From the NCBI RefSeq assembly GCF_000388115.1, contig NZ_AQGQ01000021.1, positions 1 to 36,670 on the forward strand: a DNA stretch of 36,670 nt, given 5' to 3'. Positions 8,171 through 20,905 of the stretch are shown one piece after another. Origin of the DNA: Aeromonas molluscorum 848. GTDB taxonomy: Bacteria > Pseudomonadota > Gammaproteobacteria > Enterobacterales > Aeromonadaceae. Positions within the stretch are counted from its first letter, which is position 1, and every line of letters starts with the position of its first letter. Below the pieces are notes generated by a model. That model searched no databases. It was not told the origin of the DNA and was given only the letters and a program-made list of their open reading frames with translations. The position numbers and the translations under genes are program-made.

Positions 8171-8282
8171 CAAAGGTCTTGCAGGGCGATAGATGCTATC
8201 GCCGCCCATGCCATGGATCTGATGATCCAAGAATGTTGACATGAGCCCTGCCCGGATCGACGGGCGGTTGCTACTCCCCAAT
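8171..8282 (-). ncRNA. yybP-ykoY manganese riboswitch
   Basis: Read on the minus strand, the element opens with GGGGAGTAGC (8279-8270). It contains GTCAACATTC (8240-8231), two local hairpins (GGATC with GATCC; GGCGATAG with CTATCGCC), and ends with GCAAGACCTTT (8182-8172). These blocks, their order and the roughly 110-nt length match the yybP-ykoY family known to sense Mn2+. It precedes the exchanger gene on the same strand. The closing stem is not fully obvious by eye. Confidence 0.87.
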
Positions 8283-8493
8283 GACAGTGCGGTCTTTTTA
8301 CCAAGTTGGCCGCCGCCTCACAAGGCAACGTGATGATCATCCGCTGGATCAGTTGTAAGGGAATGTGACGCCACTTCGGCCAGCCATCCATGGTTTTCCG
8401 TCCGGATCCTTGATCTTTCCCCGTCATCTGCGCCTTGGCACAGCCCTTGCTATGACCTGACTACTGTCCACAACGATTTGGCAAGGGTGAACG

Positions 8494-15416: not shown

Positions 15417-15502
15417 TGGTGCGAAGAGAGGGACTCGAACCCTCACATCCGTGGGACACTAACACCTGAAGCTAGCGCGTCTACCAATTCCGCCACCTTC
15501 GC
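15417..15502 (-). tRNA. tRNA-Leu (CAG)
   Basis: 86 nt with encoded CCA. Acceptor stem GCGAAGG, class II variable arm, anticodon loop TTCAGGT giving CAG (reads CUG), and T-arm GGTTCGAGTCC. Closely similar to E. coli leuT/leuV/leuQ. Third and last copy in the transcript. Confidence 0.97.
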
Positions 15503-15570
15503 ACACTGTTTTCCCAACCTGTTTTACATGGAGTTGGCCATGCACTGTCTGTTTTTACATGTCAGAATCA

Positions 15571-15656
15571 TGGTGCGAAGAGAGGGACTCGAACCCTCAC
15601 ATCCGTGGGACACTAACACCTGAAGCTAGCGCGTCTACCAATTCCGCCACCTTCGC
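15571..15656 (-). tRNA. tRNA-Leu (CAG)
   Basis: Identical to the copy at 15417-15502 over all 86 nt. Middle gene of the three, separated from its neighbours by 68- and 53-nt spacers. Confidence 0.97.
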
Positions 15657-15709
15657 ACATTGGGTCATCAATCTTGTTTTACATGCCATTGATGAAGCAT
15701 GCTGCAGTA

Positions 15710-15795
15710 TGGTGCGAAGAGAGGGACTCGAACCCTCACATCCGTGGGACACTAACACCTGAAGCTAGCGCGTCTACCAATTCCGCCACCTTCGC
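15710..15795 (-). tRNA. tRNA-Leu (CAG)
   Basis: First gene of the cluster in the direction of transcription and identical to the other two. It lies immediately downstream of the promoter at 15812-15839. Confidence 0.97.
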
Positions 15796-19804: not shown

Positions 19805-19833
19805 TTGACATTTATGCCGTGTTCCAGAAAGAT
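19805..19833 (+). promoter_or_regulatory. Candidate dapA leader promoter
   Basis: A consensus -35 box TTGACA (19805-19810) lies 17 bp upstream of AAAGAT, a weak -10. Start of transcription would be near 19840, just before the leader ORF. The -10 is poor, so the call is tentative. Confidence 0.4.
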
Positions 19834-19867
19834 GCCCGAACACTAATTTTTCCTCGGGGATGGCGTG

Positions 19868-19939
19868 ATGCGGTTCAACGCGTTGAAACGAAAGCATAAA
19901 AAGAACCCAAAACCTGGGTTTGCTGGCGTGCGCGCGTAA
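19868..19939 (+). CDS. Lysine-rich leader peptide of dapA (23 aa)
   Basis: ATG 19868 to TAA 19937, preceded by GGGGA 8 nt upstream. Of 23 residues five are lysine, at positions 7, 9, 11, 12 and 15, within a basic stretch (LKRKHKKNPK). It ends before the terminator at 19966-19998 and upstream of dapA, the first enzyme specific to the lysine/diaminopimelate branch. This fits a ribosome-stalling leader like those of trp, his and thr operons. The peptide itself would have no function. Not seen expressed; assigned from codon content, position and RNA pairing. Confidence 0.7.
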   Translation: MRFNALKRKHKKNPKPGFAGVRA

Positions 19940-19998
19940 CCCTCTCACCGCCCTGAGATGTTTCAAACCCCGCTGCGCACTCCGTAGCGGGGTTTTTT
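19904..19998 (+). promoter_or_regulatory. Transcription attenuator before dapA (1:2, 2:3 and 3:4 pairings)
   Basis: Segment 1 AACCC (19904-19908) can pair with segment 2 GGGTT (19916-19920). Segment 2 GGGTTTG (19916-19922) can instead pair perfectly with segment 3 CAAACCC (19964-19970). Segment 3 is also the left arm of the terminator: AACCCCGCT (19966-19974) with AGCGGGGTT (19986-19994), followed by six T. Stalling at Lys11/Lys12 (19898-19903) would cover segment 1 and let 2:3 form, so that RNA polymerase reads on into dapA. The terminator arm itself is certain; the switching is inferred. Confidence 0.72.
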
Positions 19999-20032: not shown

Positions 20033-20905
20033 ATGTTTCAAGGTTCGATCGTTGCGCTGATCACCCCCTTTCGTGATGGCCAACTGGATGAGGCGGCACT
20101 GCTGCGCCTGGTAGACTGGCACCTGGAGCAGGGTACTCACGGCATAGTGCCGGTGGGCACCACGGGGGAGAGTCCGACCCTGAGCCACGATGAGCACTGC
20201 CGGGTGGTCGAGCTGGTGGTCAAGCAGGTCGCTGGCCGGGTGCCGGTGATCGCCGGTGCCGGTTCCAACAACCCGGTGGAGGCCATCGAGTACACCCGTT
20301 TCGCCGAGCAGGCGGGAGCGGATGGCACCTTGCATGTGGCCGGTTACTACAACCGTCCGAATCAGGAAGGACTCTACCATCACTTCAAGGCCGTCCACGA
20401 TGCGACGACCAAGCCCATCATCGTCTATAACATTCCGCCCCGTGCCATCGTCGATGTGCAGCCAGCCACCCTGGCCCGGCTTGCCGAGTTGCCACGTATC
20501 GTCGGGGTCAAGGATGCCACTGGCGATCTGTCCCGCCCCCTGACTGAACGTCAGCTCATCAAGAAGCCGTTCGCCTGGCTCTCGGGTGAAGACGCTACCG
20601 CCGTGGCCTACAACATAGGCGGTGGTCAGGGTTGTATCTCGGTGACTGCCAATGTGGCCCCCAAGCTCTTGGCACAGGTGCAGAACCTGACCTTGGCAGG
20701 TGACTGGCAGGCAGCTCGCGCGCTGCAGGACAGGTTGATCCCGCTGCACCAGGCCATGTTTGCCGAGCCTAGCCCGGCGGGGGCCAAGTATGCGGCCTCC
20801 CTGCTCGGCCTGTGCACCGAAGAGTGTCGCTTGCCCGTGATGCCGCTCGCCGAGGCAACCAAGCAGCGGATCCGCGATGCCATGCTGGCACTGGACCTGC
20901 TCTAA
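20033..20905 (+). CDS. dapA: 4-hydroxy-tetrahydrodipicolinate synthase
   Basis: Condenses pyruvate and aspartate semialdehyde, the first step committed to lysine and diaminopimelate (peptidoglycan). The 290-residue TIM barrel has the Schiff-base Lys160 (GVKDATGD), Tyr132 (IVYNIPPRA) and Thr43-Thr44 (PVGTTGESP). The lysine-feedback pocket residues known from E. coli appear intact (His52, His55, Asn79, Glu83). Start ATG 20033 has AAGGAG 5 nt upstream. No terminator is evident in the 51 bp before the next gene. Control probably combines feedback inhibition with the leader attenuator. Confidence 0.96.
   Translation: MFQGSIVALITPFRDGQLDEAALLRLVDWHLEQGTHGIVPVGTTGESPTLSHDEHCRVVELVVKQVAGRVPVIAGAGSNNPVEAIEYTRFAEQAGADGTLHVAGYYNRPNQEGLYHHFKAVHDATTKPIIVYNIPPRAIVDVQPATLARLAELPRIVGVKDATGDLSRPLTERQLIKKPFAWLSGEDATAVAYNIGGGQGCISVTANVAPKLLAQVQNLTLAGDWQAARALQDRLIPLHQAMFAEPSPAGAKYAASLLGLCTEECRLPVMPLAEATKQRIRDAMLALDLL

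Follow-up and report, generated by a model that had tools for sequence, protein, structure and literature searches.

Probable lysine-responsive leader-peptide attenuator upstream of a dapA paralog conserved in the Aeromonadaceae

The locus lies in a 36,670-nucleotide stretch of Aeromonas molluscorum 848 (hereafter the window), in which a putative leader region precedes a lysine-pathway gene. The gene encodes a 4-hydroxy-tetrahydrodipicolinate synthase (TIGR00674, 310.5 bits against a cut-off of 206.15), confirming its first-pass annotation as dapA; residues T44, T45, Y107, Y133, R138 and K161 (numbering of the first alignment row) are invariant in eight aligned orthologs, and we take their roles to be those of the E. 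coli enzyme. A second dapA is found in the same genome (G000:C6), 45% identical to the window copy and flanked by a gcvR-like frame before and a bamC-like frame after, an arrangement that presumably mirrors the E. coli gene order; no leader is visible by eye at this second copy. Orthologs of the window gene occur in 37/37 genomes of the genus (86-100% identity) and in 73/75 genomes of the Aeromonadaceae, the two exceptions being G037, which carries the other dapA only, and G068 (63% complete), which has no match. The features of the locus are as follows.

19805-19833, + strand: probable promoter, with TTGACA at 19805-19810, a 17-base spacer and a weak -10 element, AAAGAT, at 19828-19833
19865, + strand: possible alternative GTG start of the leader ORF
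19868-19939, + strand: leader peptide ORF MRFNALKRKHKKNPKPGFAGVRA, read from the sequence, 23 codons plus TAA (ATG at 19868, stop at 19937-19939)
19872-19941, + strand: predicted leader hairpin (1:2), from the fold and clade-wise RNAalifold, with arms 19872-19896 and 19921-19941 and apical stem 19904-19909:19915-19920
19886-19912, + strand: proposed stall zone, with Lys codons K7 (19886-19888), K9 (19892-19894), K11 (19898-19900), K12 (19901-19903) and K15 (19910-19912)
19928-19941, + strand: segment 2, the stop-codon box; GUGCGCGCG spans 19928-19936 and has its partner within 19971-19980 in the window
19934-19941, + strand: segment 2 in the family register, where GCGUAACC pairs with approximately 19972-19978 (6/7)
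19965-19998, + strand: intrinsic terminator (3:4), a stem-loop at 19965-19995 followed by a U-run, with segment 3 as its 5' arm
20033-20905, + strand: dapA paralog (DHDPS), the gene proposed to be controlled, with ribosome site AGAAGGAG just 5'

Most of the anatomy described in the first-pass annotation is borne out. The 23-codon ORF it reported does hold five lysines within residues 7-15 (at positions 7, 9, 11, 12 and 15), the four segments it named are present (AACCC at 19904-19908, GGGTTTG at 19916-19922, CAAACCCCGCT at 19964-19974 and AGCGGGGTT at 19986-19994), and the Rho-independent terminator before dapA takes the form of a 13-pair stem-loop (8 G-C pairs, loop of 5) running into the U-run. 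Leader and terminator together give a fold z of -4.44, to which the terminator contributes a large part. The translation start signal it ascribed to the ORF is weak, with only CCTCGGGGATGGCGTG upstream of the ATG; by eye, CAGGTG or CAGGAA lies 5' of the leader in some clades, Aeromonas leaders have weak start signals and those of Tolumonas have no evident one. Here the case for the leader is at its weakest. TTGACA or TTGACT sits at a like place (by eye) in relatives from the Aeromonadaceae and from the two families introduced below as f2 and f10; a consensus promoter scan of the window did not list the TTGACA at 19805-19810, presumably because the -10 element is weak. The left-hand neighbor, rsmC, is on the opposite strand, so that no left neighbor gene transcribes into the terminator, whereas a leader transcript would.

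The leader is conserved throughout the family. We scanned all 73 Aeromonadaceae (f1) ortholog loci, keeping the ATG-started ORF with most Lys, and found a leader with at least three Lys codons, together with a terminator, at every one of them; the best count of Lys in ten codons is 3 in 26 loci, 4 in 35 and 5 in 12. This choice of ORF favors Lys, and residue and shuffle controls were therefore added (below). An alignment (A1) of the 67 distinct leaders, six duplicates having been dropped, reveals that the stop box follows the Arg codon of the Arg-Lys core at a spacing of exactly 45 bases in 62/67, and that the codon after this conserved Arg is Lys in 60 of the 62 equal-length rows (AAA 32, AAG 28). 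The leader frame likewise holds in relatives, departing in only 2/67 distinct leaders, each time with at least four Lys codons already passed: in L054 it is shifted by an indel and the stop moved, and in L056 it is ended by an early stop. These two loci come from two genomes of the Oceanisphaera-containing genus g3, and represent either real variation or assembly error.

Lys-rich leaders recur, with unlike peptides, beyond the Aeromonadaceae. An ortholog search of the order (E 1e-100) retrieved 88/394 genomes: 34 of f1, 11 of f2 (the single genus g6, Moritella), 12 of f10 (which includes Celerinatantimonas) and 31 of f3 (which includes Ruminobacter), of which we examined the loci of 11/11, 12/12 and 22/31 for f2, f10 and f3, respectively. 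In 11/11 f2 and 11/12 f10 loci, as in 73/73 of f1, a leader ORF containing Lys and a terminator lie 5' of dapA. The f2 leaders resemble MLTLKRKQDKQGKLKPA and have 3 to 6 Lys, and those of f10 differ from f2 and from one another (MSISLKLKKYKRPELKRGWLTAGCN; MTNLVSFKLKRKLPKCRERDLAGQH; MGFPSISTEKKTLPKKALKLL; MVKKIQAKVMIKKMIAFILR), and several have uncertain start codons; no such leader was found at f10 ortholog locus L155. Clusters of at least four Lys in ten codons occur in 9/11 f2 loci (the other two have 2 and 3) and in 11/12 f10 loci, and a GG..TTTT signature 5' of dapA in 73/73 f1, 11/11 f2, 11/12 f10 and 5/22 f3 loci. Inspection of the 22 f3 loci by eye found many with no leader and with the end of an apparent asparagine-tRNA ligase gene directly 5'. 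The initial proposal of a lysine leader-peptide attenuator at dapA is thus well supported by comparison, Lys codons and terminator recurring in three families with unlike peptides.

More distant relatives give a patchier picture. Among the best 80 of 582 relatives in a wider-lineage survey, a Lys-rich ORF precedes dapA in at least ten Marinomonas loci, nine of them with KRNGDKR and an ORF start approximately 165-205 bases before dapA (L212, L213, L215, L216, L218, L220, L221, L223 and L231), and one (L211) with a different Lys-rich ORF that does not contain this motif; a simple scan found no U-tract terminator at the Marinomonas dapA loci, where the ORF may perhaps serve control of translation. 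The same 80 include single Pseudomonadales, Acidiferrobacterales and Granulosicoccaceae genomes (L217, L219 and L230, respectively) with a Lys-rich short ORF and a terminator before dapA, three loci (L204, L207 and L210) with a terminator and no convincing Lys leader, and one (L224) with a terminator and 3 Lys in ten codons; no locus among them reaches 4 or more Lys in ten outside f1, f2, f10, Marinomonas, L217, L219 and L230. With a distant dapA as query (E 1e-95), matches were obtained in 3/369 genomes of the class, including the window's own, and in 3/63 of the order of G737. An RNA model of the leader (R1) was also searched in the window's own genome and in 345 genomes of the order. In its own genome R1 identifies the window locus at E 1e-19 and no second copy, the next match (E 0.05) being confined to model positions 73-133 and the two that span the full length reaching no better than E 0.6-0.8. 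Matches occur in 56 of the 345 genomes, 29 of them Aeromonadaceae; 20 of the remaining 27 were examined, of which five are f2 genomes with dapA at the matched place and 15 have no dapA there. The matches in those 15, and an extra place in G050, were taken as chance terminators, dapA being absent.

Two controls address the Lys clusters. For the residue control we took any short ORF within the 200 bases 5' of dapA and recorded, for each of the 20 residues, the best cluster in ten codons. Lys comes first on average in f1 (3.8, with Ala second at 2.3), f2 (3.8, with Asn second at 3.0) and f10 (3.9, with Leu second at 3.2); in the 22 loci of f3, the family without the leader, its mean is 1.1. The shuffle control used 400 dinucleotide shuffles for each of 21 sequences of our choosing, with ATG, GTG or TTG starts. 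The 5 Lys in ten codons of the window's 200-base upstream region were matched in 0/400 shuffles, as were the clusters observed in L040, L154 and L156; matches rose to 1-7/400 for L039, L015, L052, L145, L213, L219 and L230, to 14-21/400 for L041, L147, L217 and L114, and to 35, 77 and 260 of 400 for L224, L210 and L204, with three f3 sequences at 299-400. Because loci within a family are related, the independent evidence is the agreement on Lys of the unlike leaders of several lineages. The same results bear on the idea of a constitutive partial terminator accompanied by a chance ORF, or of a small RNA gene with a terminator that happens to lie before dapA. Attenuator leader transcripts can indeed act as small RNAs (rnTrpL, in the text available of PMC10117765), but conservation of the Lys-rich ORF and of its spacing to the stop box, recurrence of Lys in unlike leaders and the rarity of such ORFs in shuffles together make this reading highly improbable.

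A leader that is translated and controls the terminator might also answer to a signal other than lysyl-tRNA, such as the charge of a Lys/Arg-rich nascent peptide, arginine or the general speed of translation. Such a signal would fit the Arg codon beside the Lys core, invariant in the 62 equal-length Aeromonadaceae rows, and Aeromonas clade B, whose nine distinct leaders have only 3 Lys plus 3-4 Arg. We nonetheless consider it quite unlikely: Lys recurs across lineages but Arg is absent from the cores of Celerinatantimonas (EKKTLPKKALK) and L217 (AAKKPVAKKQ), mean clusters of Lys exceed those of Arg in the residue control (3.8 vs 2.2 in f1, 3.8 vs 2.9 in f2, 3.9 vs 1.9 in f10), and the enzyme encoded downstream belongs to the lysine pathway.

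Base pairing within the 67 aligned rows informs on how the leader could govern the terminator. Terminator cells are paired in 97.8% of cases, with two-sided changes at one pair (in 9 rows). The stop box GCGUAACC is paired with the terminator 5' arm in 92.9% of 533 cells, compared with 26-36% when slid; two-sided changes here amount to a single cell and shuffled columns do as well, so this pairing is conserved rather than covarying. Judged by alignment, the conserved candidate antiterminator is the leader stop-codon box with the terminator 5' arm, and in this respect the layout first put forward needs revision: the trp/his/thr design stands, but its specific 2:3 geometry gives way to the stop-codon box. 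That earlier 2:3 helix is a perfect 7-bp match in the window but is fully paired in only 2/67 distinct leaders, with 45.7% of cells paired where slid controls reach as much as 44.9%, and we rejected it as a family-wide antiterminator.

The helix could yet operate in the window's own clade, as GGGUUUG (19916-19922) with CAAACCC (19964-19970). In keeping with this, the 7-bp match is perfect in L003 and L004, and the clade B counterparts pair so well that no foreign segment equals them (fraction 0.00). Its near absence from the other leaders, the prediction that a ribosome at K15 would cover 19916-19922 and the window's predicted nascent fold, which uses pairing at 19928-19936 instead, lead us to regard this geometry as unlikely. 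The stop-box antiterminator is itself uneven between clades, in that a clade's own 2:3 arm beats foreign arms in five clades and is clearly worse in two (-8.3 vs -12.3 kcal/mol for own vs other-clade terminator arms in the window's clade, -7.1 vs -13.2 kcal/mol in clade B).

The 1:2 pairing AACCCA:UGGGUU (19904-19909 with 19915-19920) caps, in the predicted fold, a longer hairpin of the leader. Its registers were chosen clade by clade, differ between clades and display few two-sided changes. The apical stem is paired in 140/140 cells of 28 Aeromonas rows (slid controls at most 84/140, two-sided changes at two pairs), in 107/113 cells of 23 g3 rows (slid at most 76/115, one pair with two-sided changes) and in 40/50 cells of g5 (slid at most 25/50); the register tried for g4 failed, with 11/18 cells against 15/18 for a slide of -1. 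The outer helix is paired in 136/138 cells in g3 (slid at most 66/138) and 68/70 in g5 (slid at most 39/60). Exchanging arms between clades leaves a weaker apical stem in 7/7 clades and a weaker outer helix in 6/7, clade C being the exception.

Segments 2 and 3 are complementary in most lineages tested, even though segment 2 itself differs between them. Among 18 sequences of our choosing, each compared with 400 shuffles, the f10 pair GGCUGGGU:ACCCGGCC of g14 is equaled by 0/400 shuffles and 0/17 foreign segments. Shuffles as good number 3 for g3 L052, 7 for g74 and 9 for g50, 14 for g3 L059, 15 for Celerinatantimonas and 16 for Tolumonas; they reach 39-52 for the window (43), clade C, L040 and Moritella, 61 for L224 and 122 for L039. 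The pairing is no better than chance (158-322/400) in clade B (252), L217, L219, L210 and L230. The predicted antiterminator pairing is thus weak in one Aeromonas clade (B) and moderate in the window.

Folding of the 67 leaders with a ribosome placed on the Lys codons leaves the terminator arm bound upstream with a mean P of 0.63-0.77 per clade, and with the ribosome at the stop this falls to 0.03-0.43 (P stays at 0.40 or above in L040, L051 and L055). With the ribosome placed at Lys, shuffled spacers give a mean P of 0.43-0.59, so that the Lys-position P is by itself a modest signal; for clades B, D and g4, the folding stability of the real spacer does not exceed that of shuffled spacers, or hardly does. 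We therefore set aside ribosome-position folding as proof of mechanism. At the level of the family, clustered Lys codons, an intrinsic terminator, a candidate stop-box antiterminator that a ribosome at the stop would mask and a predicted competing 1:2 hairpin are all present.

We conclude that the dapA locus probably carries a trp/his/thr-type transcription attenuator with a lysine-responsive leader peptide, an interpretation drawn from comparative sequence analysis and favored, among other points, because dapA belongs to the lysine pathway. In such an attenuator, RNA polymerase would start near 19840 and transcribe the leader. With lysyl-tRNA plentiful, a ribosome translating the leader would reach the stop and cover the stop-codon box, allowing the terminator to form and transcription to end before dapA. 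With lysyl-tRNA short, the ribosome would wait on the Lys codons at 19886-19912 and break the leader hairpin, and the freed segment 2 could pair with the terminator 5' arm and permit read-through into dapA. If no ribosome were on the leader, the 1:2 hairpin would sequester the stop-codon box.

Descriptions of RNA-level control by lysine usually center on the L-box riboswitch. Like this riboswitch (RF00168), of which the window's genome has two copies, the proposed attenuator would control lysine-pathway genes; it differs in what it would sense, since the proposed leader would be translated and would respond to lysyl-tRNA, not to free lysine. Of the two riboswitches, L185 (G000:C180) precedes an NhaC/Tet(35)-like antiporter gene and L186 (G000:C45) precedes lysC. 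At the window's dapA locus RF00168 has no match at the gathering score and none listed up to E = 10, and no match to the Rfam T-box model is listed. The window leader has no Rfam hit at the gathering score, nor do 13 loci of diverse lineages; at a lax threshold all matches fall far short of their cut-offs, and of the His, Thr, Trp and Leu leader families only Trp_leader is listed, at 16.5 bits against 41.

The design matches the trp, his, thr, ilv, leu and phe attenuators, in which a biosynthetic gene is preceded by a terminator and by a short ORF with many codons for the pathway's product, and in which the stop codon lies inside the would-be antiterminator segment. It departs from the known amino-acid attenuators in specificity: the available text of PMC3766115 gives His, Leu, Thr and Trp in Rfam, with Ile/Val and Phe also characterized, and lysine is absent from these, just as no Rfam leader family reaches its cut-off at the dapA locus. 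A related case is the Sinorhizobium meliloti peptide SEP5, put forward as a leader with Lys codons and connected by its authors with threonine and lysine biosynthesis; unlike the dapA leader it is dominated by Thr (6 Thr, 3 Lys codons), precedes an aspartate dehydrogenase gene and is conserved only in Sinorhizobium, and the text available of PMC10117765 includes no terminator or antiterminator analysis of it. Elsewhere, as far as the accessible portions go, PMC1262725 has the L-box named for lysine, the lysQ case of PMC4833913 is placed under histidyl-tRNA, and term searches of the main texts of PMC2965389 and PMC2659441 did not find dapA. A lysine leader-peptide attenuator was not found in the parts of the open-access literature searched, and Vitreschak 2004 and Lopatovskaya 2010 could hold one; the design is classical, and its lysine specificity is probably new as far as this open-access search reaches.

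If the lysine attenuator is real, lysine would join an attenuator list that we take to comprise His, Thr, Ilv, Leu, Phe and Trp, and one genome would hold metabolite-sensing and charged-tRNA-sensing devices for the same pathway. Such control may help to explain why the Aeromonadaceae keep a second dapA, and the leader offers a simple, testable genetic part. More tentatively, and with somewhat more doubt than confidence, we suggest that lysine leader-peptide control of dapA could be an old and widespread gammaproteobacterial system, found in three families of the window's order, in Marinomonas with its KRNGDKRKAKK-type leaders and in the single Granulosicoccaceae, Acidiferrobacterales and Pseudomonadales genomes; in Aeromonas it would operate beside the lysine riboswitches, with free lysine read at lysC and lysyl-tRNA at dapA.

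Elsewhere in the window, a Mn2+ riboswitch (yybP-ykoY, RF00080, 65.1 bits) lies on the minus strand at 8184-8291, and three consecutive tRNA-Leu genes with anticodon CAG occupy 15417-15795 on the same strand.
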